Positions 31,117 through 64,000 of a DNA stretch of 64,000 nucleotides are shown one piece after another; within the stretch, counting starts at the first letter, position 1; the number at the start of each line of letters is the position of its first letter. The position numbers were made by a program, and so were the translations under genes. The notes below the pieces were generated by a model. That model searched no databases, was not told where the DNA came from, and worked only from the letters and a program-made list of their open reading frames with translations. The DNA comes from Aequorivita sp. CIP111184 (GTDB lineage: Bacteria; Bacteroidota; Bacteroidia; Flavobacteriales; Flavobacteriaceae), in NCBI RefSeq assembly GCF_900489465.1, contig NZ_UEFQ01000013.1, positions 1-64,000 on the forward strand. Direction: 5' to 3'.

Positions 31117-32148
31117 ATGTATATCACAATCACAGCTCAAAAAATGGGTGGCAATTATTCTAAAAGTTCGGCTGATTTTGTTGGCTATCTGGAGAAGGAA
31201 AATCAAGGACTGGAACAGCAGGATATGGAACATTTCTTTAACCAATACGGCGACGAGATTTCAGCAGAAGAAGTGGTCAGGGAAATAGATGGTAATACTG
31301 CAAAACTTGAAAAGCACGAACCACGTTTTTATTCTATTACCGTAAGCCCTTCAAAATACGAACTGAAACGGTTGCAGAACCATAGTGAGGATTTGCAAAA
31401 ATACACCCGTGAGATTATGAAGGATTATGTGGCTTCGTTCAATCGTGAAATCAATGGACGACCAATAAACATAGACGACATAAAATATTATGCAAAAATT
31501 GAACACCAACGAACCTTCAAAGGAACGGACTTTCTGATAAAGGAGAACCATCCGTATGCCACAAAAATACTTCAGCTTAAAACTGAAATCCGAAATGTTC
31601 AAGATGGACGAACAGAAGGGAATGTGAAAAAATTGGAAAAAGAAATTGGAAAACTAGAAAGAGAAGCACCACATCAACAGAACGGAAAGCGAATTGTACA
31701 AGGAATGCCAAAAGCAGGAAACCAAAGTCATATCCATATTATTGTGAGCCGTAAGGATGCATCTAATAAATTCAGTTTGTCCCCAGGAAGTAAGTACAAA
31801 GCTTCGGACGTTGAATTAAATGGTAAAACGGTAAAACGGGGATTTGATAGAGATGGATTTTTTACGAAAGCAGAAAAGACTTTTGACAAGACTTTTGACT
31901 ATCAAAGGAACTTCGCAGAAACCTATAAGGCAAGAAAAGAGTTTATCAAAAATCCTAAAATCTATTTTGCTTCACTAATGAAACTGCCCACCAACGAAAA
32001 AGCATTGGCGTTCAAAATAATGGGGAAAAGTGGCATCCCGATGATGCCGAGTATTCCCATTACACAGGCACAATTGGCAATGAAAATTTTTAATAAGCTA
32101 CGACGTGGGGCAGAAGTGGCCATCAAATCGAGTTCCATCGGAATCTAA
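31117..32148 (+). CDS. DUF5712 family relaxase (BfmB/BtgB-like mobilization protein)
   Basis: 343 residues. The N-terminus MYITITAQKMGGNYSKSSAD is typical for the family. Then come FYSITVSPSKYE, a conserved helix with KYYAKIEHQR and the metal-site type NQSHIHIIVSRKD (histidines expected to hold the metal of the nicking enzyme). DUF5712 proteins are the relaxases of Bacteroidota elements and would nick oriT and lead the strand into the recipient. C-terminal KIFNKLRRGAEV is basic. Located between the accessory protein and the coupling ATPase. Confidence 0.85.
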   Translation: MYITITAQKMGGNYSKSSADFVGYLEKENQGLEQQDMEHFFNQYGDEISAEEVVREIDGNTAKLEKHEPRFYSITVSPSKYELKRLQNHSEDLQKYTREIMKDYVASFNREINGRPINIDDIKYYAKIEHQRTFKGTDFLIKENHPYATKILQLKTEIRNVQDGRTEGNVKKLEKEIGKLEREAPHQQNGKRIVQGMPKAGNQSHIHIIVSRKDASNKFSLSPGSKYKASDVELNGKTVKRGFDRDGFFTKAEKTFDKTFDYQRNFAETYKARKEFIKNPKIYFASLMKLPTNEKALAFKIMGKSGIPMMPSIPITQAQLAMKIFNKLRRGAEVAIKSSSIGI

Positions 32149-32157
32149 TTTAAAACT

Positions 32158-33741
32158 ATGCAAATGGATAATCTCTTAACGGTACTTTTTATTATTGGTT
32201 TGGCCAGTAGTATTTTCTATGGAATATTTCGGGTTAGCAGATATGCATTTGTCGTCAATTTTCTATTGATTGGCGCTTTTGTGTATAATTTGGATGCACA
32301 ATTACCATTGGTGCAAATAGCACTTTATTTTGTTTGTCCTCTGATATTAATTAATATAGGAATGTATGTTTTCTTGCATAAATCGGAAACTCCTAAATAT
32401 AAAAATACCAAATATCAGGTCAATTTTGCCACTACAAAAGGCCGCTTTAAACTGGACAACATCAAACGAGGAGCATCAATCATTGGTTCTGCCGGAAGCG
32501 GAAAGACCGAGAGTGTTGTGTACGGATTTCTGAAACATTTCCAAAAAGAAGGTTTTTGCGGAATTATCCACGATTACAAAGATTTTGAATTGACCGAAAT
32601 GGCGTATCCTCTTTTTAAGGATAGCGATATTCCGTTTAAGGTCATTTCCTTCGATAAAATCATCCACAAGGTAAATCCTATTGCGCCACGTTATTTAGAG
32701 AACGAGGAAAGCGTAAACGAGGTGTCACGGGTTTTAATTGAAAACCTTTTAGAGCAAAGAGAAAGCGGAACAACGGGAACGACCAAATTCTTTAACGATG
32801 CTGCGGAAGGATTAATTGGTGGATTGATTTGGAAACTGAAAACAGACTACCCTAAATATTGTACACTACCACATTTAATAGCGATTTACCAACACCTCGA
32901 TACAGATAGCCTTATCCAGTTTTTGGAAACAAACACCACTTCACGAGCAATGGCAGATGCGTTTATAAGTGGAAAGGAATCTGAAAGACAGACGGCAGGT
33001 GTAAAAAGCACCTTGGCAAATGCGTTGAAACGAATTAGCACACAGCGGATATTTATGGCATTGTCCGCAGACGAAGTGCCACTTAATATAAATAGTCCAG
33101 AAAATCCTTGTGTGATTTCGATTGTCAATAATCCGAAATTTGAAACTTCGTATTCGCCTGTTATTGCAACAATAATTCATACGATTACAAAGCAAATGAG
33201 CGTCCGCAATAGCGAACCTTCATTTCTATTAATGGAAGAAGCGCCAACTATTCGTTTATTAAATATGCATCGGATTCCTGCAACTTTACGGAGCTATAAT
33301 ATTTCTACTATTTATGTGATGCAGGACAAAATTCAGAACGATATGATGTATGGGGATAAGGCAAGCAAGGCAATTTTAAGCAATCTTTCTTACCAGTTTT
33401 TCGGAAAGGTAAATGACCCGGACACCGCAAAATATTATGAACGCTTTTTTGAGATTATTAAGGATCCTACCAAAAGTATTAGTCGTGGGCATAACTTAGA
33501 TTTTGATACACGAATTACAACTGGAGAAAAGGAAATTCCAAAAATTAGGGCAGATGTGTTTTTTAGATTAAAACAAGGCGAGTTTATCACGTATGCTGAT
33601 GGGAAGGATAAGAAGGTGCAGTTTAAATTATCCAAGATTGAAAGGGAACTTCCCGAAAATTCAAAACAGTTTTCTATGGTCGATTTGGAACTTACTTTTG
33701 AGAGGATTTATAAGGAGGCGAGGTCGATTTTTAGTGAATAA
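32158..33741 (+). CDS. Type IV coupling protein (TraG/VirD4-type ATPase)
   Basis: 527 residues with two or three N-terminal membrane segments (about 5-75), then Walker A GSAGSGKTES (about 110-119), an aspartate-rich region HDYKDFELTEMAYPLF, and Walker B-type SFLLMEEAPTIRL (about 355-365). It couples relaxosome DNA to the mating channel. Its position 10 bp after the relaxase and the length of about 530 match the family of Bacteroidota conjugative elements. Intact. A run of small ORFs inside it on the other strand are shadows. Confidence 0.9.
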   Translation: MQMDNLLTVLFIIGLASSIFYGIFRVSRYAFVVNFLLIGAFVYNLDAQLPLVQIALYFVCPLILINIGMYVFLHKSETPKYKNTKYQVNFATTKGRFKLDNIKRGASIIGSAGSGKTESVVYGFLKHFQKEGFCGIIHDYKDFELTEMAYPLFKDSDIPFKVISFDKIIHKVNPIAPRYLENEESVNEVSRVLIENLLEQRESGTTGTTKFFNDAAEGLIGGLIWKLKTDYPKYCTLPHLIAIYQHLDTDSLIQFLETNTTSRAMADAFISGKESERQTAGVKSTLANALKRISTQRIFMALSADEVPLNINSPENPCVISIVNNPKFETSYSPVIATIIHTITKQMSVRNSEPSFLLMEEAPTIRLLNMHRIPATLRSYNISTIYVMQDKIQNDMMYGDKASKAILSNLSYQFFGKVNDPDTAKYYERFFEIIKDPTKSISRGHNLDFDTRITTGEKEIPKIRADVFFRLKQGEFITYADGKDKKVQFKLSKIERELPENSKQFSMVDLELTFERIYKEARSIFSE

Positions 33742-42420: not shown

Positions 42421-42786
42421 TTAAAACGGCTCTTTCTCCCTCGGCCCATTATAGGTTACCTTCCATTGTCCATCTTCTTGAACCAGTTTAAAAACACCTG
42501 GCTTTGGGTCGTAAGCTGTTGAATATTTTACCCAAACCACCTCGCCATCCATAGCTTCATCGACCACTTTAAAATTGGCTTCTGAATCTCTATCTTCAGT
42601 AAACATTGATTGAATGCTGGAAAGGTTTGCATATCCTTCCGCAGTGGTATGTTTTTTTAAGGTGGCTTCATCACCGTGATAAAAACTTTCGGCAACAACT
42701 TTGGCAGTTTCAGAAGGGGAGAGATTCTTGTTTTCTGAACACGAGATGAACAATAATACGAGTGAGCAAATAACTAATTTTTTCAT
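42421..42786 (-). CDS. DUF4878-like lipoprotein at end of tra operon
   Basis: 121 residues with a lipoprotein signal (LVICSLVLLFISCSENK, Cys at about 16). The body (TAKVVAESFYHGDEATLKKH, then VWVKYSTAYDPKPGVFKLV and DGQWKVTYNG) has the NTF2-like pattern of DUF4878 proteins. It lies 8 bp after TraN, so it is probably co-expressed with the transfer genes as a surface component. Function unknown. Confidence 0.75.
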   Translation of the reverse strand: MKKLVICSLVLLFISCSENKNLSPSETAKVVAESFYHGDEATLKKHTTAEGYANLSSIQSMFTEDRDSEANFKVVDEAMDGEVVWVKYSTAYDPKPGVFKLVQEDGQWKVTYNGPREKEPF

Positions 42787-42793
42787 AATGTTA

Positions 42794-43651
42794 CTAATTT
42801 GGATTATTGATATAACTATGTGATATTTTCAGTTCAATATTGCGTTCACCATCTTTTTCGTGCAGTTCCAAAACTGCTCTACGGTCATTGGATAATGAAA
42901 ACTTTGGTATTACATATACAAACCGTGCTGTTTCATTCTCTTTTATTTTGGAAGGCAGATTGTATTTAAATAGCGGTTCTTGATACAGACGTTGTAGCGA
43001 TTTTCTTTTTCCCTTTTGTCTTGTTTCAACCGAGAGTTTTAAAAAATTCAAATCGTAATCCAAAGTAGAATTATTCTTAATCTCGATGACGAAATAAAGC
43101 TCTTCCGTATCAAAAACAATGTTTTCGACCCTTAAAATTATACCTTCGGTTCTCTTTTTAATCCTACCTACACCTTGCTTTCTTTCAAGAAGGTATGAAC
43201 TGAATTTTTGGTAATAATAATTTCTATTATCAATTTTACTTTCAGCAGTTGCAACAGAAATAGAATCATTCATTATTGGTCTTTCGTTCCCGATACTACT
43301 GGACTTCGGAATAAAATAATTGAATTTAGATAACTGCGCCTTATACCTTACAATATACGAAAAAATTGAACCATCTCTATTGACTATCAGAAGATTGCTT
43401 TCTTTTCCAGGCTTTGCCTGAAGCAGTCCGAAATACTGTTCTTTTTCACGGTTGTAAGTAAATATAAAATTATCCGAACCGGTTATTCCTTGCCGAATGG
43501 GCTCTGGAAAAAACAGCGCAACATTTTTAGTGTCATTCGCATAGATGGTATCTGTTGCGATTGTTTCTTGTGCTGTAACCTGCGCCCAGCAAAGTCGAGG
43601 TGCAAAAGTTACGACTGCTATAAATAATGAAGTTATGATATATCTTTTCAT
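42794..43651 (-). CDS. traN: TraN-like conjugal transfer protein (VirB9-type)
   Basis: 285 residues from the ATG at 43651, which opens a signal peptide (MKRYIITSLFIAVVTFAPRL, cut after CWAQ). The open frame starts at 43684 and overlaps TraM by four bases, so the longer start is possible. The body has YILRVENIVFDTEELYF-type strands typical of Bacteroidota TraN. It forms part of the outer channel with TraM. Sits between TraM and the DUF4878 lipoprotein in the compact operon. Confidence 0.85.
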   Translation of the reverse strand: MKRYIITSLFIAVVTFAPRLCWAQVTAQETIATDTIYANDTKNVALFFPEPIRQGITGSDNFIFTYNREKEQYFGLLQAKPGKESNLLIVNRDGSIFSYIVRYKAQLSKFNYFIPKSSSIGNERPIMNDSISVATAESKIDNRNYYYQKFSSYLLERKQGVGRIKKRTEGIILRVENIVFDTEELYFVIEIKNNSTLDYDLNFLKLSVETRQKGKRKSLQRLYQEPLFKYNLPSKIKENETARFVYVIPKFSLSNDRRAVLELHEKDGERNIELKISHSYINNPN

Positions 43652-43680
43652 AATAGTGAATTTTTGAGAACCTATTAGGT

Positions 43681-44610
43681 TCATAGTTTTGGTTTTAAAA
43701 TAAGTTTGTAATTGTTCAACACGGTCACTTTAATGCTTCGGTTTTTACGTTTTAGGATTTTTGTGATTCCGCCAACTTCTGGAACACTTGGAATATTGAT
43801 ATCGCCTATAACATCGTCCAGAACTTCCGTTGTTATCTCTGACCTAAAATTGTTTTGTACATAGATACCCTCGCTACCATCCTGTAAATCGAAGGCTTTG
43901 AGTTTGGTGGGATGATGCTTTATATTTTCAATCTCAATTAAAGCACGATTGGGCTGAAAACTTATAAAGCCAAAAACGAGTGTGTTTTTTGGCATTTGTT
44001 TATTGTTAATCATTGCGGCTTTGGTAAGACGCATTCTCAATCGGGAGTTTGTTTTGACTACTTGGTCGCCATCAACGACCACATATATTGTCTCATCAGT
44101 ATTCCCGATGATTGAAAAATCGTTTGGCTTGGGCGAAGCAGCAAAAAATAATTGATGTTCTAGGCCCAATTCTTTGGCTTCAATTTTCTGTTCTCTTTTT
44201 ATGTCTGCGGAATCTACTTCTTCAATTTTTGTCGGAGCTGTTTTTCTTTTCCCAAGATTTTGATAGGTCAAATCAGAATATTTTATTTTTCCTGCGGAAT
44301 AGATGCTATCCACGATACGTTCTTTTTCACGTTCAGGCAAATCTGCACTATAAAAGCCAAGGGAATCAATCAGTTTTTCATCATAGATACTCGGAGCATT
44401 GTTTTCACGGACTTCCTTCAAATCATTGATGGCATCTAGTTTGGAATCGTATTCTTTTTGATTTTCTTCCAAATCTGGTATTTGGGTCTGTTCGAGATTT
44501 TCATTTTCACTTTCATCATCGCCCATTACCATAACGGAATAGGAAATTAGAAATATGAAAATCACAGCCAATACCGCTGCAAAGACAATTTTGTTTTTTT
44601 CAATTTTCAT
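43681..44610 (-). CDS. traM: TraM-like conjugal transfer protein (VirB10-type)
   Basis: 309 residues with one N-terminal membrane helix (VFAAVLAVIFIFLISYSVMVM) followed by a proline- and glutamate-rich linker (about 35-150) and a C-terminal beta-rich part (VVVDGDQVVKTNSRLRMRL, AMINNKQMPKNTLVFGFIS). This is the layout of TraM/VirB10 proteins that bridge the inner and outer membranes. It overlaps TraK by 11 bases and TraN's open frame by four, so it is in one operon. Confidence 0.85.
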   Translation of the reverse strand: MKIEKNKIVFAAVLAVIFIFLISYSVMVMGDDESENENLEQTQIPDLEENQKEYDSKLDAINDLKEVRENNAPSIYDEKLIDSLGFYSADLPEREKERIVDSIYSAGKIKYSDLTYQNLGKRKTAPTKIEEVDSADIKREQKIEAKELGLEHQLFFAASPKPNDFSIIGNTDETIYVVVDGDQVVKTNSRLRMRLTKAAMINNKQMPKNTLVFGFISFQPNRALIEIENIKHHPTKLKAFDLQDGSEGIYVQNNFRSEITTEVLDDVIGDINIPSVPEVGGITKILKRKNRSIKVTVLNNYKLILKPKL

Positions 44611-45214
44611 CGGATAGTTTTTTTAAAGTGTTTTCAAAGTAATCGTATATCAATAATCCGTGCGGATTGTTTGGGAAGTTTCGATTGACCATAATGAGTT
44701 TTCCAGTTGAAACCAATTCGTAGGTGTCAATTATGGAACCTCTATTGATTTCAAAAATGGTAGTTGTAGTGAAACTATACGAACCATTACTTTCCATTAT
44801 CCTCGAATCGATACTCAAAACTTTTTGAACCAATGAGTATTGCAACAATCGGTTGTAAACCCCATCGGCTTTCTTTTGGCGATAAAGGTTGTCAACTGAA
44901 CTATTGCCCAACCAAAGCGCTTTTTCCAAGTTCCGTTCATAGTTACTTGCATCGATGTTATAGAAGTAGTTGTGGAACAACTCTAAATGTGCCAAAGCTT
45001 CAACCCTAAAATTTTCTTTTTGGGTAACGAGTTTAAGCGGAATGATGCTACCATCGGTGTTAATGGCGAATGCACTATTGAGGGCATTTTGGTTAGTTCT
45101 AAATGCTATCCAAACGGAAAATGTACTTGCCAAAAAGGCAAATACTACGACTGCCAAAACGATAAACCTGTTTAATTTTAGGATGTTATAAATATTCTTA
45201 TAAGGTGTTTTCAT
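44600..45214 (-). CDS. traK: TraK-like conjugal transfer protein (VirB8-type)
   Basis: 204 residues. An N-terminal membrane helix (NRFIVLAVVVFAFLASTFSV) is followed by a periplasmic domain (about 45-200) with KENFRVEALAHLELFHNYFY and DYFENTLKKL, matching Bacteroidota TraK. It nucleates channel assembly. It lies 12 bp after TraJ. Confidence 0.88.
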   Translation of the reverse strand: MKTPYKNIYNILKLNRFIVLAVVVFAFLASTFSVWIAFRTNQNALNSAFAINTDGSIIPLKLVTQKENFRVEALAHLELFHNYFYNIDASNYERNLEKALWLGNSSVDNLYRQKKADGVYNRLLQYSLVQKVLSIDSRIMESNGSYSFTTTTIFEINRGSIIDTYELVSTGKLIMVNRNFPNNPHGLLIYDYFENTLKKLSDEN

Positions 45215-45226
45215 TCTGATTTTGCT

Positions 45227-46069
45227 TTAGTTGGAAAATAATCTTAACGTGAACGACGTGGCGCGCCTATATAATTTGAATTTTAGGAAAACAATGAAGC
45301 CCACAGAACCAAGTTGTACTACAGGAGCAAAAAAGCCTTGACCTACGTCTGTTCCAAACAGATTATTCCAAAAATTTGTGTTGATTTCTGTGTATAGCGC
45401 ATTAACAAATACGTTGACCAAAAAGAAGGCTGGAACGAGCATATAGACCGCTGCATACAATTTGAAAAAATTATAGGCGAGGGAACGGAATTTCTCAAAT
45501 ACAGCTAAACTAATGACCAACGGAAAAAATGCCTGCATAATACCCAAAAGGAAAAATCGTTCCGCTAAAAATAGCGGATAAATAAACAGGTCTAAAATCC
45601 ATAGGATAATCCCAATGATGAAGGCAAATATTTTAAACCCGTAAAGTGGAGTTACCAAAGCTTCATAAAGCAATGTCATTGCATTTTTTGCAGCATCGAT
45701 TAGATTTACGTCTTCCTCTATCGGAATGTCCTGCATTTGCAATGGCAACAAAGCTGGTGCAGTTCCTCTATATTGTGCCTCTATGGAAACCAAGATGCCA
45801 TCGAAAAAGCCTAACACCTGTGTTGAGAAAATGACTAAAAGGACTATGGCAAAATTCTTCGCTAATTCTCCCGGACTCAATCCCCAAGTGTAACCGTCTT
45901 TATCTGCAACACCTTCATTGTACTTTTTAAGGATATTGACCAGAAAAAACAGAACGGCAAGCGTTTTCATTCCTGCAATGGTATATTGCGAGAAGCTGCT
46001 GTTCTGTATGGTCTGGAAAACCGTATCTATGTATTCCAGTCCGATCCCTAAAATGATTGTTGCGGTCAT
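45227..46069 (-). CDS. traJ: TraJ-like polytopic conjugal transfer protein (VirB6-type)
   Basis: 280 residues with about five to six hydrophobic segments (about 30-50, 75-95, 145-175, 180-200, 205-235, 250-270). TraJ in CTnDOT-like systems spans the inner membrane and is thought to form part of the DNA channel. The gene begins 2 bp after TraI's stop, so translation is coupled. The short C-terminus YRRATSFTLRLFSN is basic. Confidence 0.82.
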   Translation of the reverse strand: MTATIILGIGLEYIDTVFQTIQNSSFSQYTIAGMKTLAVLFFLVNILKKYNEGVADKDGYTWGLSPGELAKNFAIVLLVIFSTQVLGFFDGILVSIEAQYRGTAPALLPLQMQDIPIEEDVNLIDAAKNAMTLLYEALVTPLYGFKIFAFIIGIILWILDLFIYPLFLAERFFLLGIMQAFFPLVISLAVFEKFRSLAYNFFKLYAAVYMLVPAFFLVNVFVNALYTEINTNFWNNLFGTDVGQGFFAPVVQLGSVGFIVFLKFKLYRRATSFTLRLFSN

Positions 46070-46071
46070 CC

Positions 46072-46641
46072 TTAATATTCGGTTTCGCGGTTATTTATTT
46101 TATCCTGCATTTTTCTGAAGGAAATAATATCCTTGTATCGTTTCGTTTTGGCTTTGACGTTAGAAACCATTTCCTTTGATTCAAATTCTTTTTGTTTAAG
46201 GATTTCAGCGCGTTCAGCATCGCTCATTTTCAGATAATCGCTAGATAAGATTTCATCGATAAAATCCATTGTGTCCAAAGAATTTTCTACGATTGCACTA
46301 AACGATTCCGAAACCCTTGCCACTTCTTCAGGTTTGATGTAAGGACTGTCAAGGATGTCCCTTAAATCATCTTGCATCATATCGATGAGGCGTTGGTTGT
46401 TCCGACCAATCTCACGAACGGCATTCAATTGCCTAACTACATCGTTGACCTTTTCAATGTTTTCTTTTGCTGTTTTTAAGAACTTGACAGTCTTGATAAT
46501 GTTTGCGGTTTGCTTCCCAGACTCTAATAGTTGCTTTATTAAACTAATAAAATTGGTATTGTCATAAACAGGCATTCCTTGGGCTTTAATGTTCAAGCTG
46601 AAGAGTAGTGCCATAGCGAGTACTAAAATTTTTGTTTTCAT
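46072..46641 (-). CDS. traI: TraI-like (DUF4141-type) conjugal transfer protein
   Basis: 189 residues with a signal peptide (KTKILVLAMALLFSLNIKAQG). The mature part is a long helical region with NVVRQLNAVREIGRNNQRL and SKEMVSNVKAKTKRYKD-type coiled-coil repeats. TraI/DUF4141 proteins are periplasmic and probably correspond to VirB5-like pilus or channel parts. It lies 11 bp after TraG. Confidence 0.78.
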   Translation of the reverse strand: MKTKILVLAMALLFSLNIKAQGMPVYDNTNFISLIKQLLESGKQTANIIKTVKFLKTAKENIEKVNDVVRQLNAVREIGRNNQRLIDMMQDDLRDILDSPYIKPEEVARVSESFSAIVENSLDTMDFIDEILSSDYLKMSDAERAEILKQKEFESKEMVSNVKAKTKRYKDIISFRKMQDKINNRETEY

Positions 46642-46652
46642 TTTTTTTATAT

Positions 46653-49049
46653 TTAAGATGTGAATTGAATTATTGCTTTTTCCATATCGTGATGCTCTTC
46701 ATAGAGCTTCATTATTTCTTCGTTTTCTTGCCCATCTGTCAAATAAGCTGCGTACACTTCTTTCGGTACTTCCAGCCTGAAAATGTTACTTTCCTTACCG
46801 ATTTTGATGAACATTTCCGTGTATTTCCGTGGCCCTGAAAGATTATTTTTAATAGATTTTAATTGGTTCAAATCGTGGGTTGAGAGATTGAGTCTTTTAA
46901 CCAGTTCGTCATACCCTTTTTCGTTATTCAGACTATAAATGACCTGTGTGTTTTCCAAGATGCTTGCTGATGTAGAATTGTTGGGCAGCTGATTGATGGA
47001 TTGCAGAATAATCCCAATCGCACCATTTTGTTTTCGAATGGCTTGGTAGTAGAACTCCACACTTTCCAACACGTTTTCGAACTTTAGTTGCTTGGCAAAC
47101 TCGTCAAAAAGGATGATTCCTTTTTCAGCACGGTTTTTCCAAATGGTTCTTTGAATAGCTGATTTAATCAGCTTCAACATTACGGAAAGGATTTCCTTAT
47201 TATCCTTCACTTCATCCAGTTCAAAAACAATCAATCGTTTGTCTTCGATTTTATAGGTTTGGTCTTCGCTCACTTCAAACAAGAAGCTATATAGACCATC
47301 GCCGACATATTCAGACATTACGTGCAAAAAGCTTGTAACATTGAAGTAGTCGGGATGGATTTTTAAAGTATTCAGAAGGTCTTTCTGATTCCTTTCTATA
47401 AAACTGTAAAATCCTTCCAAAGAATGGTTTTCAGCAGTGCTATCGTAATAATGGCGCAGTATTTTTTTGATGGAAACCGATTGTGCTTTGGTCACTTTCA
47501 AATCTGAAGCAAACAATTCAAAAAGGAACACCGATAAATCCTCAAGACGTTCCGGTGTCAGGTCATTTTGGTTACTGATATAAAATGGATTGATGCCTAA
47601 ATTTTTTCCACTCTCATAACGAAGTACGGTATATTGTTCAGGATAGAGCTTTGCGAATTTCGTGTAAGAACCACCCAAGTCGATGATTACAAGGCGAACA
47701 CCACTTTCAAAATATTGGCGAAGGATGTTATTGGCCAAAAAAGATTTGCCTTCGCCCGTTGGTGCGAAAATGGCGAAGTTCCGAGCCTTGATTCGCTTCT
47801 TACGTTCATCCCAAACATCTTTGAGAACAGGAATGTTATGTTCACGGTCGTTAAAAATAATTCCGGTAGCATCCGATTTATAGTTGGTATTGTTGATGAA
47901 CAGGCAGAGTGCGTGTTTCAAATCTGTAACATACAAATCGTTATTCGAGAAGTTTGAGGAGAAGCAACAATAACTGTTTAGGATATAATTTTTACGTTCC
48001 TCGCCTCTTGGATAGTAAGGAATGATATCCAGTTCTTTAAACTCGGTTTTGATTTTTGAGGTTATCTTATCAAGCTCTTTAGCTTCTTTTGCCCAATAGA
48101 CAATATTGATATGACCACGAATAATCCGTGCATTATCATCGGCATTTATTTGGTCAAGGATGTGTTGAATCTTTCCGAGAACGACTTTATTCTGCGAGCC
48201 AAAATTGGAACTTTTGTTAAGTTCCTCGATTTTCTTATCGAGCAACTTACGCCATTTTTGTTTGTCGTCCAGATAGATAATTTGATTAACGATATGATTT
48301 TCGTTAAGCGTAAGCCCTAAACCATCAATAAACCCTTGATGAAACACAAAATCGTCTGAAGTGAATTTCTCATTGGTCTTGCTACTCTGTACACTTTCGC
48401 CAAAGCACAGTTCGCTATTGATGGCAAGGGCATCAAAATGGTTTTCGCCTATATTGACGCTTTTTTTATCTAATAATATATCTGTGTCAAAACCTTCGTT
48501 GAAGCCATTAAAATAGCCACTTGTCAGTTTCTGAATCTCTTCCGCTTTAAGCGGAAGGAATGCCATTTTTCGGCTATTATTTATGAAGGAAACAGAATCG
48601 CTCACCGAGTTGACAAAGCTTTTAATGTTGTCGTCCAGCTCCTGTACAATTCCCTTTGAAACCTTTCGGAACGGATTGACATATTTTGGATTGTTGAGCG
48701 CTTTGTTTTTGGTCAAGATGAAAAATAAATAGCATTTGTGTTCAATATGTCCACGACCTTTAAAATGCTCGTGTGTTGCTTTCTCTAAAAAAGTTTTATT
48801 TGGAAGCTGTTCAGAAGAATAGGATTTCTTCAGGTAGATATCTTGTTTGTGAACTACAGTACCAATCGGTAAAGATTTCAAAGCCTGAAACCAAGCACCG
48901 TGCATATCTTCAAAATCCTTTTCGGACAACGAATAAATCTCTGGCAAGTTACCTTCATAGCACAAAACGACATTACCATTATTGGCAAATACGATATTAT
49001 CCTGAATATCTGCAATGGGTTGATATGCCGAAAGGTTAATCTTGTTCAT
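46653..49049 (-). CDS. traG: TraG conjugation ATPase (VirB4-type)
   Basis: 798 residues. Walker A APTGEGKSFLANN (about 425-437) and Walker B IILFDEFAKQ (about 643) with NEKGYDELVKRLNL-type sensor follow the VirB4 pattern. This membrane-associated ATPase powers channel assembly and DNA transfer. Its start overlaps TraF by 14 bases, and the operon order (TraF, TraG, TraI) is that of CTnDOT-type elements. The protein appears intact. Confidence 0.92.
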   Translation of the reverse strand: MNKINLSAYQPIADIQDNIVFANNGNVVLCYEGNLPEIYSLSEKDFEDMHGAWFQALKSLPIGTVVHKQDIYLKKSYSSEQLPNKTFLEKATHEHFKGRGHIEHKCYLFFILTKNKALNNPKYVNPFRKVSKGIVQELDDNIKSFVNSVSDSVSFINNSRKMAFLPLKAEEIQKLTSGYFNGFNEGFDTDILLDKKSVNIGENHFDALAINSELCFGESVQSSKTNEKFTSDDFVFHQGFIDGLGLTLNENHIVNQIIYLDDKQKWRKLLDKKIEELNKSSNFGSQNKVVLGKIQHILDQINADDNARIIRGHINIVYWAKEAKELDKITSKIKTEFKELDIIPYYPRGEERKNYILNSYCCFSSNFSNNDLYVTDLKHALCLFINNTNYKSDATGIIFNDREHNIPVLKDVWDERKKRIKARNFAIFAPTGEGKSFLANNILRQYFESGVRLVIIDLGGSYTKFAKLYPEQYTVLRYESGKNLGINPFYISNQNDLTPERLEDLSVFLFELFASDLKVTKAQSVSIKKILRHYYDSTAENHSLEGFYSFIERNQKDLLNTLKIHPDYFNVTSFLHVMSEYVGDGLYSFLFEVSEDQTYKIEDKRLIVFELDEVKDNKEILSVMLKLIKSAIQRTIWKNRAEKGIILFDEFAKQLKFENVLESVEFYYQAIRKQNGAIGIILQSINQLPNNSTSASILENTQVIYSLNNEKGYDELVKRLNLSTHDLNQLKSIKNNLSGPRKYTEMFIKIGKESNIFRLEVPKEVYAAYLTDGQENEEIMKLYEEHHDMEKAIIQFTS

Positions 49050-54762: not shown

Positions 54763-54769
54763 TTATCTT

Positions 54770-55768
54770 TTAGTACGGGTTTTTTTTATTCTTGATGAAT
54801 TTAAGAAGGGTTGTAGAAGAAACATTTTTTGAATTATGCACAATCATTTCTTTGATAGCATCTTTACAGGCATTTGAAATATCGGCAAAACTTAAACCTA
54901 CTGCCTCTTTAGCGATTACGTTTATAGATTTACCTTTTTCAATAGAGTAGCTTTTGAGTTGTACTGCAATTAGTAGTGCTATTTCTTTATCATTTGGAAG
55001 GGGATATTGGATTATATCGTCGAATCTTCTGAATAAAGCTTTGTCAAGAGATTCAGGTATATTGGTAGCGGCAATTAATAAACTGTTTGACTTGTCTTTC
55101 TCAATGTTCATCAAGAAACTATTCAGAACTCTTTTTATTTCCCCAACTTCATTTCCGTAGCTTCTGTTAGAGCCAATTGAATCAAATTCATCGAATAGAT
55201 AAACAGCTCTATGTTGATACATAGAGTCAAATATTAATTTTAATTTCGAGATTGATTCTCCCATATATCTGGAGATTAAACCATCCAAACGAATTATAAA
55301 AAGAGGAATTTCTAAATCTCCAGCAATTGCTTTGGCAGTCATTGTTTTTCCACAACCCGGTGGACCTACAAGCAGTAACTTTCTTCTCGGCTCTAAATTG
55401 TGCTGTAAAAGTTGGTCAAATTTCTGCTGTTCCGAAAGAATTCGCTTTATCGCTTCGGAAACTTGCTCGGTCAAAACCATATCTTTGGTTTTGATGTGTG
55501 GGCGATATACTTCAAGTAAATCTTTTAATTCCCTTTGGGCTTCATTAATTGGAAGAATTCTTGTCTTGGAAACTGAATCGATATTTCGTTTAGACTTGAT
55601 TTTTTCAATAAGTCCTTTCAGTTCTTCGGCAAGTTTGGTGTGTCCTTTTTTAGCTTCAGCAGCAGCAATCTGCATAGCAGTGGAGTAAAAACGGTTGTCG
55701 TCCCCATCTCCATAACTTTGTAAAAGTGCTTTTATTTTTTCTGCTGCTGCCAATTTATTTTTTAACAA
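54770..55768 (-). CDS. ietA: AAA ATPase, IetA-type
   Basis: 332 residues, TTG start at 55768. AAA motifs are GPPGCGKTMTAKA (Walker A, 135-147), YLFDEFDSIG (Walker B, 190-199), and ALFRRFDDII (arginine finger region). The region before it (about 70-130) is helical. Paired with a subtilisin-like protease it matches the IetAS system, known from Agrobacterium plasmids (incompatibility) and listed among anti-phage systems. Stop and protease start are 7 bp apart, so an operon. Function as a defence pair is inference from family. Confidence 0.82.
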   Translation of the reverse strand: MLKNKLAAAEKIKALLQSYGDGDDNRFYSTAMQIAAAEAKKGHTKLAEELKGLIEKIKSKRNIDSVSKTRILPINEAQRELKDLLEVYRPHIKTKDMVLTEQVSEAIKRILSEQQKFDQLLQHNLEPRRKLLLVGPPGCGKTMTAKAIAGDLEIPLFIIRLDGLISRYMGESISKLKLIFDSMYQHRAVYLFDEFDSIGSNRSYGNEVGEIKRVLNSFLMNIEKDKSNSLLIAATNIPESLDKALFRRFDDIIQYPLPNDKEIALLIAVQLKSYSIEKGKSINVIAKEAVGLSFADISNACKDAIKEMIVHNSKNVSSTTLLKFIKNKKNPY

Positions 55769-57256: not shown

Positions 57257-57541
57257 TTAAGAATTTAGACCGTGCTGCACACGATTGGCATCCATCACTT
57301 TTTGAATTTCCTCTGTATCGTAGTAGATGATGCCACCAACTTTGTTATAGGGCAAAGTACCATTGATACGAAGGTTCTGAAGTGTGCCTGGACTCACTTG
57401 AAGTAAATCCATAACCTCGGAAGATTTAAGGTATTTTTTGAGCTTTCCAGAGGCTTGTTTGGATAGTAAATTTTTAATGTCATCTAGCAATTCCATTTTG
57501 AATTCCCGAAGGTCGTCTGTGGTAATAATACTTGTCGGCAT
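57257..57541 (-). CDS. Helix-turn-helix protein, excisionase-like
   Basis: 94 residues. The C-terminal half KYLKSSEVMDLLQVSPGTLQ and IIYYDTEEIQKVM is the MerR-like HTH fold found in Xis-type proteins of Bacteroidota elements (helix_turn_helix_17). It would bind DNA at the attachment site or activate downstream genes. Its promoter is downstream of rteC (minus-strand sense), as in CTnDOT where RteC turns on the excision genes. Confidence 0.8.
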   Translation of the reverse strand: MPTSIITTDDLREFKMELLDDIKNLLSKQASGKLKKYLKSSEVMDLLQVSPGTLQNLRINGTLPYNKVGGIIYYDTEEIQKVMDANRVQHGLNS

Positions 57542-57816: not shown

Positions 57817-58656
57817 TTATGCATCCGATTCCTCGAACCGTTTTAATAGGGCTTCCTCCAATTTTTCCATAAATTTTGTCTTGCTGCCTTTTCTGGCTCG
57901 TATCTCTATAAAGGTGTGGTAATAATTCCCCAGTTCTATATTAAAAACCTGTTCAAAGAGAGTGGCCAATTCCTTTATATCAGCCGTTCCGCTATTAATG
58001 GACCCACTGCTCTGTAAGGCATAGATCAGTTCGATCAATTCTGTTTTATTGCCTGTCCAAAAAAGTCTAGATGATTGCTTCATTAAATTTGTATTTTGGT
58101 TATCGTTGTTATTCTCAAGTTTTTCTATTTCCTGCTGTAGATAAACAATCAGCATATCGTAGGCCATGATCGCAGCTACTGTACCATCCTGACAAGTAGA
58201 AAACTTTTCATCAACATAGAAATTAAAAAAATCCGTCGCTGTTCGAAGATCTGACTTTCCCCTGACAAAATATTCTTCGTCGAGTGAGGTTGCTCCCCGG
58301 CGATAATAATGGTAGAATTCCAGATTATCATTGAAGAAGACCTGTAATTTGTTAATTTGACTGTTAAGGTATTTGATCTGGAATTTAGAGCTGCTTCTCG
58401 GCCGTTTGCTTTCAATTTGAAATAGTTTTGCAAAGTAGATTAGTTTGCTGAAAATTTGGGGTTTTATATGTTTGAAGAAAAATATCTCTTCGACAGTGGA
58501 ACTGAAACCAGTTTTGAGAACTTTCTTCCGAAGTGTCTTTATCCATCTTTCAGTATAGGTTATACCCGTCTCTGCCTTGTATAAAATATCTTCCGTACAA
58601 GTTTCCAAAGCTTCCAGCTTGGTTTCGAATTCCGATATCAATTTTTGGTATTTCAT
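57817..58656 (-). CDS. rteC: RteC, regulator of element excision
   Basis: 279 residues; I start at the ATG at 58656 (MKYQKLISEFETKLEAL) since the frame before it (TTG at 58686) lacks a family match. Helical domains, with IFFFKHIKPQIFSKLIYF and NDNLEFYHYYRRGATSLDEEY, are the RteC hallmark. RteC of CTnDOT activates the xis operon. Here the gene lies 26 bp after the PLP-synthase fusion gene stop, so the two probably share a transcript, which links the small-molecule enzyme to excision control. Confidence 0.9.
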   Translation of the reverse strand: MKYQKLISEFETKLEALETCTEDILYKAETGITYTERWIKTLRKKVLKTGFSSTVEEIFFFKHIKPQIFSKLIYFAKLFQIESKRPRSSSKFQIKYLNSQINKLQVFFNDNLEFYHYYRRGATSLDEEYFVRGKSDLRTATDFFNFYVDEKFSTCQDGTVAAIMAYDMLIVYLQQEIEKLENNNDNQNTNLMKQSSRLFWTGNKTELIELIYALQSSGSINSGTADIKELATLFEQVFNIELGNYYHTFIEIRARKGSKTKFMEKLEEALLKRFEESDA

Positions 58657-58682
58657 ACATATCGTACAGGTATTTTGGGAAA

Positions 58683-61094
58683 TCAACTGGATTCCAGTAT
58701 CCCCATCAGCTCCAGTGTATAGTTATCGGCACATTGTAAATAGGCGTAAGTGTTATGTACCGAAGCTCCCAGTTTTCGTTTTTCAAAAGGGGCAGTCAGA
58801 CCGAGTGAGATATGGTCATAATTCAGTTCAAAGGCACGTTTAATGGTCTGATAAAGAAGCTGGCGATACACATGGAATTCTTTAAGGGAATTATAGTCCA
58901 TGCCTACAAATGCCGGGATATAGGTTCTATGGTTATTTTTATAACATAGCATTACACCGATAATTTTGTTGGGACTCTCTTTGGTGCTTAGAACAATAAA
59001 CTCCCAATTGGAGTCCTTGGACATATTTTCGAATAATTTTGAAGGAAAGGAGAAGGTGTTCAGCCCCAAATTATTTTGGTGCACATTTGAATACAGGGAT
59101 TCAATTTGTGCCAATTGATCTTTTGAACAGTTATGCAGTATATTGATATTGAGCAATGGTTCTATGTTGAGAATTTCCTTTCTTAAATGCTTTCTATTTC
59201 TGGCTGAAAGCTTTGCCAAAAATGAATTAAAGTTTTCGTGGGCAACCAGATCAATTTCACAAGAGTCGGGCATACTCACCCTTACAAAACCTTGCCCTTG
59301 AAAATAAGTGTGGTTTTCTTCATTATGGCGAAAATCACGCAGAACAATCATTTTGGACTTAAAACGATTTTCCATATTTTCCAGAACCTGCACCATCATA
59401 TTTAAAGCTTCATTTTTTAGTGGATGCGTATTATCCAAAAAAAGTTGGTCTCCTTCCGTAAAAAGTGAACCCAAACTTAATACTTTAGAGGTCAAATAAT
59501 ATGGATTGCTTTTACGTTCCTCCTCAATGGTCTGTGATGTGCCAAGGGTAGCCAACATATCGTCCTTCCATAGTCCTACTGTCATATAAGTAGCTAAGAT
59601 CGGTTGCTGCTCCTTATCGTATATAATTAGATACCTAAAGTCCCAATTATGTTCCTTTAACTCATTATTGCTAAATGATTTTTCCAAAAACCTTAATCCT
59701 TCCCAATCATATATTCCTTTCTCTCCAAGCAATTGGTTCCAAAGTTGTTTGTCAATCTGCAAGATCGAATCTTCCAATTGCACTTTTAAATCTTGGCCAA
59801 TCTGAGGTTTAAGAGACCTTTCTTTTAGTTTTGGCTCTAGCTTAAAGGCCTGTAAAACGCGTTCGCTGTTCGTATGGGTATCCTCCAACGCCTTTGGAAA
59901 ATGATATTCCATGGCTTCTACCAAGGCTTTGATCTCTTCTTTTTGGTTGTGCCTAGAAATGGTAATCCGAACTCCCGTATTCTTAACGGGAACAGCCGGA
60001 AATATTCCAAGGTTTACATAAAAGCCTTCCTCCATTAAACGGTTGACAAAATTATATCCGGTCTTGGGCATCCCGGTTCCAATATAAAAAACAGGAGAAA
60101 TATTTTCATCGATCAGGGGCAGCTCAGTTTGCTGTAGCAGTTCATTGAAGTAGGCCACCCCTCCCCTTAACTCCTGTTGCAGAATATATATTTCCGGGGA
60201 CAAATGAATTTTGGCAGAGGCGATCGCAGCTCCTATTGATGCTGGTTCCAATTGAGCTGAAAAGGTCAAAGGGCCACCAAAGGTTTTTATCTCATGGTAC
60301 ATCTTCTCATTTGAACATGCCAATACCGCCCCGCTTGCTCCAAAGGTTTTGCTAAGGGTCCCGAACAGTAGTATGTTTTCCGAGAGTTCCCCCAGTTCGC
60401 TCAAAACATATCCCGTACCATTTTTGCCTATCCAGCTCATCCCGTGCACATCGTCAAAATAGAAGTTCAGCTGGGGATATTTTTGGCTCAGTGTCTTAAG
60501 ATCGGCAATGGGAGCAAAATCGCCATACATGGAATAGATACCATCGGCCATATACCAAATCTTTTTTCGCTGGTCTGCATAACGTTTAATCCTGTCTTCC
60601 AACATATTAAGATCATTGTGGCGAATCATATCAATGGGGACACTTCGGTTTTTTAATATTTTTGCAGCACTCTGCACACTCCAATGTACTTGGTGATCCA
60701 AGATGATGGCATCCTGATCCTTTACAGCACTGGGTATTACGCCAATATGTCCCAAAGTGCTATTTTTAGTAATAATAATTGGATGTCCATACATTTCTTC
60801 AACCATCTCCTCCAGTTCTCTATATAAAGGATTAGAGATATATGACTTTGACAACGGAAATTGAGTGCCGTATTTTCTTATTGCGTCAATAGCAGCTTCC
60901 TTTAAGCGCACATCTTGTTCCAGACCTAAATATCCGGTAGTTCCGAAATGAAATAGTTCTCGCTTTTTTATCCGAATGGTTCTCCCTGAAAAATTTCCTC
61001 CTTCCGCATATAAATGGAGAACTCCTTCATTTTTGGCATCTGTAAATACCTCATTAACCGTGTTCAAAAAATTATTTTGTTTAATTTTTGCCAT
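58683..61094 (-). CDS. PLP-dependent AONS/CqsA-type synthase fused to GNAT acyltransferase
   Basis: 803 residues (start at ATG 61094). The N-terminal 400 residues are an alpha-oxoamine-synthase fold: FGTTGYLGLEQDVRLKEAA, the conserved FYFDDVHGMSWIG, and the PLP lysine in LFGTLSKTFGASG (about 249). The C-terminal half (about 430-800) has GNAT-like blocks (LSARNRKHLRKEILNIEP, LGLTAPFEKRKLGAS). Such synthases condense an amino acid with an acyl-CoA; CqsA/LqsA-type members make alpha-hydroxyketone signals. A fused acyltransferase could provide or change the acyl part. The product is unknown. Next to rteC, and divergent from the STAS-like and PAS-AraC genes. Confidence 0.8.
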   Translation of the reverse strand: MAKIKQNNFLNTVNEVFTDAKNEGVLHLYAEGGNFSGRTIRIKKRELFHFGTTGYLGLEQDVRLKEAAIDAIRKYGTQFPLSKSYISNPLYRELEEMVEEMYGHPIIITKNSTLGHIGVIPSAVKDQDAIILDHQVHWSVQSAAKILKNRSVPIDMIRHNDLNMLEDRIKRYADQRKKIWYMADGIYSMYGDFAPIADLKTLSQKYPQLNFYFDDVHGMSWIGKNGTGYVLSELGELSENILLFGTLSKTFGASGAVLACSNEKMYHEIKTFGGPLTFSAQLEPASIGAAIASAKIHLSPEIYILQQELRGGVAYFNELLQQTELPLIDENISPVFYIGTGMPKTGYNFVNRLMEEGFYVNLGIFPAVPVKNTGVRITISRHNQKEEIKALVEAMEYHFPKALEDTHTNSERVLQAFKLEPKLKERSLKPQIGQDLKVQLEDSILQIDKQLWNQLLGEKGIYDWEGLRFLEKSFSNNELKEHNWDFRYLIIYDKEQQPILATYMTVGLWKDDMLATLGTSQTIEEERKSNPYYLTSKVLSLGSLFTEGDQLFLDNTHPLKNEALNMMVQVLENMENRFKSKMIVLRDFRHNEENHTYFQGQGFVRVSMPDSCEIDLVAHENFNSFLAKLSARNRKHLRKEILNIEPLLNINILHNCSKDQLAQIESLYSNVHQNNLGLNTFSFPSKLFENMSKDSNWEFIVLSTKESPNKIIGVMLCYKNNHRTYIPAFVGMDYNSLKEFHVYRQLLYQTIKRAFELNYDHISLGLTAPFEKRKLGASVHNTYAYLQCADNYTLELMGILESS

Positions 61095-61293
61095 AACCTT
61101 AAAATTTAGAACATAGAATTTAGGGGCATTTGATGGAAAATAAAAACCCAACCGAACAATAATACCTTCGAGATAAGAATTATTTCATATTTGATAAGTA
61201 AAAGAACCTAAATAGGATCAAGGGAGAGACGGGTAAAAATGGATGAAGTAATATTTTCGTAAATTTATAGTACAATACCAGTTTTCTATTATT

Positions 61294-61665
61294 ATGGTGT
61301 CTATTGAAAATAACTATGCTTTTTATAAACTTGACGGACGTATTCTATATATCCGTTATCATATAGGTATTGTTATAACCCTAAATGCTGCAGTAAAAAT
61401 CGTTGCAGATCGTATTCGATTACAAGATGGGGTGTCGTATCCTGCACTATGCGATATTAGAGGGGTAAGAGAAGTACACAAGCCAGCTAGAGACTATTTG
61501 GCACTTGAAGGTTCAGTTTTGCTTAAAGCTGTTGCGTTTATCGTTGAAAACCCTATGTCGGAGGTCTTATCGATGTTTTATTTAAAAACTACCAAGCCGC
61601 CTGTTCCCACCCAATCATTTCAGAACCAAAGGGATGCAGAAAGGTTTTTAACGGATTTTCTTTAA
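61294..61665 (+). CDS. Small DUF7793/STAS-like protein
   Basis: 123 residues (start ATG 61294). LDGRILYIRYHIGIVIT, YPALCDIRGVREVHK and NPMSEVLSMFYLKTTKPP suggest an alpha/beta fold like the STAS/SpoIIAA type; the family call is weak. It reads away from the synthase fusion and is followed after 58 bp by the PAS-AraC gene, so the two could be co-expressed. Confidence 0.6.
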   Translation: MVSIENNYAFYKLDGRILYIRYHIGIVITLNAAVKIVADRIRLQDGVSYPALCDIRGVREVHKPARDYLALEGSVLLKAVAFIVENPMSEVLSMFYLKTTKPPVPTQSFQNQRDAERFLTDFL

Positions 61666-61723
61666 TTGATTGTCTGATTACAATAGAAAAAGTGTATGAT
61701 TATTTAATCATAAAAATTATATT

Positions 61724-62695
61724 ATGTCTAAAAAGAAGCGGCTAAGAAGGATTAAAGATGTATTGATGGAAATGGGAGCGGGAAAATTTTTTTATCGCAT
61801 AGAAAGATCCTCAAAAAGCGATCATGTGGAGGCTCTTATTTCTGTAATTAACATGATGGGCGAAGAAATTGAAGAGGCTTTGGTCCATCAGGAATATGTT
61901 AACGTCAATGAAAGCATCAAACACATTGTTTTGATGAATTTCCAAATTGATTTAAATGGTAAAATTAAAGCGTTAAACCAACAAGCTTGCGAGATTTTAT
62001 TCTATAGGCCTGATGAAATAGTGGGACAAACGTTTATGTCATTTTTGGATGAAACTTCTATTTCTAAGTGGAAGAAAAATTTGAAGAATCTTTTAAAAAA
62101 GAAATTAGTAGACACTTCTCTAAATCTCACATTTAAAACACGGAAGGGATTATTGGTCCCCAGCGCTTGTTATATAAACAAACTTGAAGGGAAATCTGAC
62201 GATGAGGAAAGCTTTATTATAACCGTAGTTAAACACTCCAAAAAACAAGTGGAATTGGAAGATTATCTCAAGACTACTGAACCCCAAACAATAAAAAGAC
62301 ACAGGTTGTTCAAAAATTTACCCTTAATTAAAAAAGAGAAAGTAAGATTGAATTCTGAGGACATTGCAAAAATTAGGGAGGCTAGAGATTTTTTAATGAA
62401 TAATCTTGAAAAAGAATTTCCTTCTCTAAAAGAGTTGGCTCTCCAATTCGGGACGAACACTTTCAAACTGAAGTATGGATTTAAAGAACTGTATGGTATA
62501 AGCGTCTTCCGTTTTTTAAGAAATGAACGTTTGAGAAAGGCCAAGATTTTAGTCCAAGGAGGGAACTGTAGTTTTAAAACAATAGCATATCAATGTGGTT
62601 ATAGAAGTGTCCCAACCTTCACGAATACTTTTAAAAGTGTGTTTGGGCATACACCCACCGAGCTTCGAAAAAAATTCTCATCAGAAGATTTTTAA
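61724..62695 (+). CDS. PAS domain-containing AraC-type transcription regulator
   Basis: 323 residues. A PAS domain at about 70-165 (IKALNQQACEILFYRPDEIVG) can bind a small molecule, and the C-terminal AraC HTH pair (about 220-318) shows LKELALQFGTNTFKLKYGFK and IAYQCGYRSVPTFTNTFKSVFG. PAS-AraC regulators respond to ligand or redox. By position it may control the divergent synthase operon. Intact, with a strong family end (GHTPTELRKKF). Confidence 0.82.
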   Translation: MSKKKRLRRIKDVLMEMGAGKFFYRIERSSKSDHVEALISVINMMGEEIEEALVHQEYVNVNESIKHIVLMNFQIDLNGKIKALNQQACEILFYRPDEIVGQTFMSFLDETSISKWKKNLKNLLKKKLVDTSLNLTFKTRKGLLVPSACYINKLEGKSDDEESFIITVVKHSKKQVELEDYLKTTEPQTIKRHRLFKNLPLIKKEKVRLNSEDIAKIREARDFLMNNLEKEFPSLKELALQFGTNTFKLKYGFKELYGISVFRFLRNERLRKAKILVQGGNCSFKTIAYQCGYRSVPTFTNTFKSVFGHTPTELRKKFSSEDF

Positions 62696-62794
62696 CTAAT
62701 CTTTCGAAATATTTAAAATAATACCTATGGGATAAGGAATACTCCAGAAATCACAAATTTTAATATCGAACTTTATCATATCAAATTGAATGAT

Positions 62795-64000
62795 ATGGTA
62801 TTAAATGAAACATATAGAAAACTAATCATAAATATTATTAGTCTTTTATTTATTCTTTTATTTGTGTATGCGGCTCTCAGTAAGCTTTTGGATTATGAAA
62901 CCTTCCAGATCCAACTCGCTCAATCTCCATTATTAAGTGCCTATGCTGGGATTGTGTCTGTACTGGTGCCGAGCATTGAAATTCTATTGGCTGTGTTGCT
63001 TGTAATTCCTCGTTTTAGATTCCCCGCTCTCATTGGCTGCTTTTGGTTAATGGTTATGTTTACAGCTTATATAGTCATTATTCTCAATTTCTCTGACTTT
63101 GTTCCTTGTTCTTGTGGGGGTGTACTTGAAAAACTGAGTTGGACGGAACACCTCTTTTTCAATATTTCCTTTATTATATTGGCAGTGGTGGGAATCCTAC
63201 TCGAATCCCAACTTCCTAGATCTGGCAAGTTGATGACCTCAAATAAGGTCGTGTTTTTTGCTCTTTTAATTATTGCCGCTTCTGCAACGCTTATGTTGAC
63301 AGTTCTGTTTATAAGCTCTGAGAAGAAAATTTACAGGAATGAGGCCTTCCAGCGTAAATACCTCCCTCGTGCTGCGGAGTATTTAGGTGATTATGAGCTT
63401 GGCTCGAATACGTATTACCTCGCAGGTTTTAAGGATAGTGTTATTTATATTGGGAATTTTCACGCTCCTCTGTATCTAAAAACTATCGATGTTTCCTTGA
63501 GGCATATTGAGGATTTCCCGGTTACCATTAGTAACCTTGAGCTCCCGTACCGAAGGGCGCGTATAATGGTGGAGCCTCCTTTCTTTTTTGTGGGGGACGG
63601 TACCGTGCCCGTACTTTTTCGGGGAAAAACAAATGATTGGCAAGCAACATTATTCAGTTATGACGAAGCCTACTTTAAACAATTTGAAATAGCGGATTCT
63701 ACCCATATTGGCCTTGCGGGCATATCCGCTATCACTTCAACCACAAATCTTGGGCTCATTACTAAAGCGACTGCCCAGGACACCGTAATTTTTAACGATA
63801 AGATTATAACCAAACAGTTTGATGGAATATTTGATAGTGATGGCTTGCTGCTATGGAACTATGCACATAAAAAATTCATCTACACTTATTTTTATCGAAA
63901 CAGTTATGAGGTAACGGATGAAAACTTGAACTATAAATATTCCGGAAAAACCATTGATACTGTAAGCAAAGCAATTTTGGATATTGCCCATCACAGTAAA
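62795..64000 (+). CDS. MauE/DoxX-like redox-associated membrane protein, cut by window edge
   Basis: An ORF from the ATG at 62795 is open to the window end (402 codons, no stop). The first 140 residues have four hydrophobic segments and the pair PCSCGG (Cys 105 and 107), typical for MauE/DoxX-type membrane proteins with a redox cysteine pair. After one more membrane helix (about 155-175) comes a soluble strand-rich domain (LAGISAITSTTNLG and onward) that resembles a beta-propeller. Role in thiol redox chemistry is inferred. It is in the same direction as the PAS-AraC gene. Confidence 0.7.
   Translation, partial: MVLNETYRKLIINIISLLFILLFVYAALSKLLDYETFQIQLAQSPLLSAYAGIVSVLVPSIEILLAVLLVIPRFRFPALIGCFWLMVMFTAYIVIILNFSDFVPCSCGGVLEKLSWTEHLFFNISFIILAVVGILLESQLPRSGKLMTSNKVVFFALLIIAASATLMLTVLFISSEKKIYRNEAFQRKYLPRAAEYLGDYELGSNTYYLAGFKDSVIYIGNFHAPLYLKTIDVSLRHIEDFPVTISNLELPYRRARIMVEPPFFFVGDGTVPVLFRGKTNDWQATLFSYDEAYFKQFEIADSTHIGLAGISAITSTTNLGLITKATAQDTVIFNDKIITKQFDGIFDSDGLLLWNYAHKKFIYTYFYRNSYEVTDENLNYKYSGKTIDTVSKAILDIAHHSK

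Follow-up and report, generated by a model that had tools for sequence, protein, structure and literature searches.

The described systems closest to the locus analyzed here are the CTnDOT/CTnERL elements, bacterial ceramide and sulfonolipid synthesis, and CqsA/LqsA alpha-hydroxyketone quorum sensing, in which the CqsA type uses the sensor kinase CqsS. In CTnDOT, RteB activates rteC, and RteC controls excision and the transfer genes (PMC1976400). For Caulobacter, a cytoplasmic location is described for Spt and for the acyltransferase bCerS, and both are proposed to work ahead of the reduction step (PMC11087976). What decides the movement of RteC elements beyond the tetracycline-regulated ones of Bacteroides seems open in the open-licence literature, where we found no account of a synthase-rteC or a PAS-AraC-rteC gene set. 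Here we examine such a set in Aequorivita sp. CIP111184, in a stretch of 64,000 nucleotides (positions 1 to 64,000 of contig NZ_UEFQ01000013.1, hereafter the window). On balance, we lean towards the PAS-AraC regulator being a switch for the synthase and rteC together, and thus a control of a CTnDOT-like element family of Flavobacteriaceae.

Gene Content of the rteC Locus and Its Element

The features of the locus are listed in Table 1. TraG, TraM, DUF4138 and the coupling protein are Bacteroidetes tra genes that, together with RteC, agree with a CTnDOT-type ICE, and the HTH_17 protein downstream of rteC, a recurrent neighbor in relatives, may be excisionase-like. Phage_integrase (PF00589) has no match in the window, and the closest one on this contig is at 96960; the search for att sites gave no clear repeats. 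Among 625 matching plasmid records, none covers 80% of the synthase.

Table 1. Coordinates, strand and basis of the features discussed in the text (positions in the window).
Feature	Position	Strand	Basis
DUF5712 protein and TraG/TrwB-type coupling protein	31117..33741	+	Domain matches
Conjugation genes, including TraG ATPase, TraM and DUF4138	42421..49049	-	Domain matches
HTH_17 protein downstream of rteC	57257..57541	-	PF12728, E 1.1e-8; recurrent neighbor in relatives
RteC	57817..58656	-	From ATG; PF09357, E 4e-81; 26 bp downstream of synthase
Fusion (803 aa) of an alpha-oxoamine synthase and a FemAB/GNAT-like acyltransferase	58683..61094	-	ORF from ATG, domains
Divergent promoter region between synthase and DUF7793, 199 bp	61095..61293	.	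Spacer alignment
Predicted operator A, half-sites 21 bp apart	61161..61197	-	66 bp upstream of synthase ATG
DUF7793, STAS/SpoIIAA-like fold	61294..61665	+	PF25056, E 1.2e-41
PAS-AraC regulator	61724..62695	+	PAS_9, E 3.9e-6; HTH_18, E 1.1e-18
Predicted operator B, with the motif of operator A, in the spacer from PAS-AraC to MauE	62720..62756	-	Position weight matrix (PWM)
MauE-domain membrane protein	62786..64000, past the window to contig position 64306	+	Domain match

Other genes of the region were also recorded. An IetS/IetA-like anti-phage pair, consisting of an S8 protease and an AAA ATPase, lies inside the element at 52291-55768 on the minus strand, and the element also encodes, on the plus strand, a GmrSD type IV restriction enzyme (35181-37085) and a type IIG-like restriction-methylation gene (38564-41665). 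On the left side of the element, about 2.5 kb (26597-29088) contain no called ORFs longer than 90 aa and show similar-looking short ORFs. A second RteC is encoded in the same genome (contig C36, 62919-63581), and DUF7793 has a single match in this genome, the one in the window. The locus itself was rejected as a defence system, PADLOC giving no match at E<=0.001 for the synthase, RteC, DUF7793 or PAS-AraC.

The initial annotation had described a PLP synthase fused to a GNAT acyltransferase, 26 bp from rteC and facing a small STAS-like protein and a PAS-AraC regulator, and this description holds in each part. The ORF coordinates give the 26-bp spacing, and the ORF strands and domains place DUF7793 and PAS-AraC, themselves separated by 58 bp, divergent to the synthase. 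DUF7793 is STAS-like by its AlphaFold model (pLDDT 90.0) and Foldseek matches to the SpoIIAA-like 2q3l (E 2e-6) and the STAS protein 4xs5 (E 1e-4), and PF11964 was found in 4 of 31 members; PAS-AraC belongs to the AraC family by its HTH_18 match. The fusion is borne out by Aminotran_1_2 (residues 49-394), FemAB_like (444-725) and Acetyltransf_6 (633-767) domains in a single chain. A TTG at 61151 is a possible alternative start upstream of the synthase ATG, at which aligned relatives also begin.

Affinities of the Synthase

Both the fold and the PLP-site residues place the synthase in the alpha-oxoamine synthase (AOS) superfamily. H137, D214, H217 and K249 are invariant in 41 of 41 aligned sequences; by comparison with AONS, we take them to be the PLP lysine and the active-site His and Asp residues. 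The whole chain was modeled by AlphaFold with a pLDDT of 89.6, its best PDB match is Alb29 both by sequence (E 2.4e-36) and by Foldseek (E 2.8e-31), and all 50 Foldseek matches listed for the model are AOS-superfamily chains. The AOS half matches serine palmitoyltransferase (SPT) and cysteate acyltransferase. A profile search of the acyltransferase half against the PDB gave no convincing match (best E 0.67); its FemAB_like family (PF04339) is present in the Caulobacter control genome.

The label "CqsA/AONS superfamily" given previously thus holds at the superfamily level but not for the CqsA type, as the synthase scores 71.5 bits with the CqsA-type NCBIfam NF005526 against a cut-off of 428. 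An identity as SPT was likewise rejected, with scores of 155.3, 143.4 and 107.7 against cut-offs of 500, 640 and 670, and among the 11 NCBIfam families listed no cut-off was exceeded, PRK07505 being best (274 versus 342). By analogy with these families, the enzyme would form an alpha-aminoketone by condensation of an amino acid and an acyl thioester, and N-acylation by the second half would turn this intermediate into a lipid-like, 3-ketoceramide-like molecule; an acylated, lipid-like alpha-aminoketone is the most likely product. One fused chain may in this way carry out both the Spt and the bCerS steps. The host genome has a separate cluster (L117; contig C10, 153000-157500) comprising a cysteate synthase (659 bits versus a cut-off of 600), another AOS and a 372-aa protein, which is probably a sulfonolipid cluster.

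Recurrence of the Gene Set in Flavobacteriaceae

A scan of contigs gave 111 relatives, of which 80 were taken in for locus counts. Nearly all of the 80 are titled as Flavobacteriaceae genera, with one from Catalimonadaceae (L108), the weakest member, in which DUF7793 is 26% identical and part of PAS-AraC 30%. The synthase was detected at E<=1e-80 in 41 of 397 genomes of the family (33 of 237 genera) and RteC in 135 of the 397, and in a phylum-wide sample the synthase was found at E<=1e-60 in 9 of 395 genomes, eight of them in Flavobacteriaceae.

Where the upstream flank sufficed, PAS-AraC is kept divergent to the synthase in 78 of 78 loci; for DUF7793, gene calls give 77 of 78 and tblastn gives all 78. 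RteC lies directly downstream of the synthase in 55 of the 78 loci with downstream flank and is absent in the other 23. A search for the set in other elements had been proposed as a check, with a gene order not conserved as grounds for rejection; the set recurs in many genera and the order with it. By hand reading, each of the 42 places where the synthase is at least 50% identical has a strong DUF7793 neighbor, with RteC adjacent at 37 of them, and nine of 52 strong DUF7793 places (at least 100 bits) lack the synthase. Six of these nine have RteC adjacent (L154, L155, L157, L160, L161 and L162), the frames in L157 and L162 being short (184 and 200 aa) and L157 having no called PAS-AraC; in L156 and L163, MauE and SusCD genes accompany the regulator pair, and neither rteC nor the synthase is present in the stretch examined. 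Because of these neighbor counts, the stable unit is either the synthase or rteC with the regulator pair, and the place before rteC may or may not hold the synthase. No partner genes were found around the distant synthases L174 and L175 (33-34% identity) in the stretch examined.

A conserved block continues beyond the window, with MauE and an 85-aa DUF6520 peptide followed on the opposite strand by an S9 peptidase (in relatives, the peptidase may be of the met-zincin or M16 type), SusD and SusC. Among 74 loci with 8 kb upstream, MauE is present in 58, DUF6520 in 59 and SusC/SusD in 63. The DUF6520 gene (contig C35, 64392-64649; L114:2393-2650) is the single match in its genome, and DUF6520 is not mentioned in the open-licence papers searched.

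Candidate Operators

The divergent spacer is 192-208 bp long in many of the closest loci and longer in others, and its alignment revealed a tandem repeat near TTGTCTGAAAGGGATT. Tandem direct repeats at 21-bp spacing are typical of AraC operators, such as araI. With no motif model and a search range of 18 to 40 bp, the spacing of the best self-repeat was 21 bp in 47 of 80 divergent promoters (the window and 79 loci) and, after thinning to below 85% synthase identity, in 27 of 47 versus 33 of 470 shuffles; the control spacers between rteC and the HTH_17 gene had this spacing in 2 of 24 cases thinned and 4 of 37 unthinned. Across relatives, the repeats therefore have the form of a tandem direct-repeat operator, which is weak in the window itself.

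PWM pairs of at least 16 bits were found in 67 of 79 divergent spacers, a count that is not independent because the PWM was trained on this region; of the 54 AraC-MauE spacers, which lie outside it, 33 have such pairs. Elsewhere, 53 such pairs occur in 1.62 Mb, 45 of them in eleven loci (L042, L067-L071, L076, L077, L079, L090 and L111); the promoter site of L066 was tallied here, as the locus has no DUF7793 gene call. A PWM made without the window's clade gave pairs of at least 13 bits in 36 of the 54 AraC-MauE spacers versus 1 of 540 shuffles. Operator A is usually the stronger site across loci, and operator B reads opposite to MauE in 33 of 33 cases. In the synthase-less L154, a 36.9-bit pair stands directly before rteC; L161 and L162 have other 21-bp repeats there, and L155 and L160 no clear repeat.

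Within the window, the full PWM found three pairs above 10 bits, the two best being operators A and B, in this order, and operator A has the same position as the strong sites in relatives. The clade-blind PWM misses both, its sole window match being at 6305, and it found the promoter site in just three of eight loci of the window's clade. Operators A and B match at 22 of 32 positions, compared with a maximum of 21 in five shuffles; the corresponding values are 26-29 in four of seven near relatives and 20-22 in the other three. This self-match test covered 27 chosen sequences, of which 26 were testable and 18 beat their five shuffles, and some best matches (e.g., L037, L038, L062 and L112) were off the operator. 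Because the clade-blind PWM misses both sites and the A-B match is barely above shuffles, we consider the predicted window operators weak and as resting mainly on position and relatives. The same PWM found no other target above 10 bits in six stretches of the host genome, a null that says little because it also misses the window sites. Overall, the operator sequences support the proposed control of synthase-rteC by PAS-AraC, mainly in relatives.

In L067, L068, L071, L090, L111 and related loci, a single locus may have as many as seven additional operator pairs of 21-bp spacing, many of them close to a gene for an outer-membrane barrel and to a 206-aa gene that matches no Pfam family; no convincing small peptide genes were found under the extra Flavivirga operators. 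In addition, the DUF7793 leader in the window (61250-61286) contains the conserved ACCAGTTTTC, preceded by a TAnnTTTG-like box, which we take to be a type of promoter.

Covariation of Operators, Regulators and Enzyme

Operator distances correlate with AraC HTH distances (r 0.71; 76 of 80 loci). In the same 76 loci, the partial correlation given the synthase is 0.46 (p 0.0005), and the operator shows partial correlations, given the HTH, of 0.08 with the synthase (p 0.039) and 0.09 with PAS. Because the operator tracks the HTH rather than the synthase, PAS-AraC fits as the predicted operator binder, on correlational grounds.

Mean identities, drawn from sets of 76, 44 and 50 loci, are 0.61-0.62 for the synthase and 0.29-0.31 for PAS; that of the HTH is 0.48 (76 loci). 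Given the HTH, PAS and DUF7793 distances have partial correlations of 0.28-0.39 with the synthase in thinned sets. With HTH, RteC and the AOS half controlled, PAS and DUF7793 correlate with the acyltransferase half at 0.20 and 0.38 (sets of 34, 47 and 25 loci after thinning), whereas values for the AOS half are weaker, at -0.11 to 0.14, one of them with p 0.035 (thinned). Given HTH and synthase, RteC has partial correlations of 0.17 with PAS (p 0.0045) and -0.11 with DUF7793. In 44 loci, the Cys-containing mature part of DUF6520 (mean identity 0.22), less conserved than the signal part, tracks SusD and SusC with partial correlations of 0.72 and 0.69, compared with 0.53 and 0.57 for the signal part and 0.18-0.20 for SusC/SusD against the synthase. 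Linkage and unequal rates could be part of the cause of these Mantel signals.

Proposed Switch and Alternative Explanations

In the switch that we favor, PAS-AraC, probably with its STAS-fold partner DUF7793, would bind the 21-bp-spaced direct repeats and activate the synthase-rteC operon, and from operator B it would activate the MauE-DUF6520 operon, taking the place held by RteA/RteB in CTnDOT. On firing, RteC and the bifunctional enzyme would be made together, and the role that we prefer for the product is feedback to the STAS/PAS sensor, either inside one cell or from cell to cell; chemistry and ligand are inferred here from family analogy. The switch is supported because the operator stands before rteC itself in L154, and because the AraC-MauE spacers, outside training, carry pairs far above shuffles. 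It is weakened because the clade-blind PWM misses both window sites, because 23 of 78 loci retain synthase and regulator but have no RteC, and because operator B, 38 bp from the MauE start in the window, is oriented against this gene; in addition, the window has no integrase match, and no clear att repeats were found.

The initial annotation went further and proposed a communication module, in which the PAS domain may sense the product and the cell or its neighbors would control RteC and excision. Spelled out as communication between cells, the product would exit, re-enter, perhaps through SusC/SusD, and bind PAS or DUF7793, setting rteC by density or mates. The recurrence of the set stood, as did, on sequence evidence, the link of the regulator to the operon; the operator evidence placing the synthase under its neighboring regulator, the tracking of the acyltransferase half by PAS and DUF7793, and the frequent presence of SusC/SusD are all consistent with communication. 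The idea of a signal fared less well, as regulator and rteC persist without the synthase in six loci, in L154 with the same operator, the CqsA-type score is very low, no dedicated exporter was seen among the neighbors scanned, and SusC/SusD follow the mature part of DUF6520 far more than the synthase. The low mean PAS identity (about 0.30) also counts against a signal, since a conserved ligand would imply a better conserved sensor, and we regard communication as unlikely. A more elaborate, self-contained two-channel circuit, in which the acyl-aminoketone is read by STAS/PAS-AraC and DUF6520, as a hypervariable secreted Cys peptide, by a cognate SusC/SusD so that kin are sensed before excision, appears distinctly improbable. 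Alternatively, the product may be an effector and not a signal, with the synthase co-induced with rteC to alter the membrane in transfer (lipid, mating surface or exclusion). Membership in the same predicted regulon as rteC and membrane genes would suit such a role, as would the resemblance of the fusion to the SPT and N-acyltransferase steps of lipid synthesis (PMC11087976), but it does not predict that PAS and DUF7793 covary with the acyltransferase half, and no reductase gene was present among the neighbors scanned; we consider this role as unlikely as communication.

If the regulator pair served a MauE-DUF6520-SusCD nutrient or peptide cluster, with synthase and rteC as mere neighbors, the gene content of L156 and L163 and the position of operator B before MauE would be expected, but not the location of the usually stronger operator A at the synthase promoter (in L154, that of rteC), nor the retention of the regulator in synthase loci without RteC, so that we find this rather improbable. 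Least of all do we expect the synthase to be hitchhiking cargo, passed on with the element as a metabolic gene free of any regulatory link. Its absence from nine of 52 strong DUF7793 places agrees with such a status, but it occupies a fixed slot, in many loci with short gaps, its operator recurs and its catalytic residues are invariant, and we hold cargo status very unlikely. The PAS-AraC switch remains our preferred reading. It supplies a candidate for the input, a sequence for the operator and an enzyme predicted to be induced along with rteC, all of which could be tested in marine bacteria that grow in culture. Should the product prove to be a signal, a small molecule would control conjugation in this case within Bacteroidota; should it be a lipid, envelope chemistry would be tied to DNA transfer.

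Comparison with Known Systems

The locus resembles CTnDOT/CTnERL in RteC, the CTnDOT-type tra genes and a dedicated, here predicted, activator of rteC. It differs in that the PAS-AraC/STAS pair and AraC-type repeats would replace the RteA/RteB two-component system of CTnDOT, in the biosynthetic enzyme just upstream of rteC, and in the lack of any tetracycline link among the genes scanned. With CqsA/LqsA quorum sensing it shares the alpha-oxoamine synthase superfamily, but the enzyme here carries a fused acyltransferase and falls far short of the CqsA-type cut-off, and PAS-AraC is found with no sensor kinase among the neighbors scanned. Alb29, the best PDB match by both approaches, is a stand-alone enzyme at 24-26% identity. 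Bacterial ceramide and sulfonolipid synthesis likewise pairs an AOS (Spt or Cfat) with an N-acyltransferase, here joined in one chain; by contrast, the synthase scores below the SPT cut-offs, lies on a mobile element beside rteC, and is accompanied in the host by a separate cysteate-synthase cluster. New in this analysis is the 21-bp tandem repeat in the divergent promoter, with a second copy before the MauE/DUF6520 operon.
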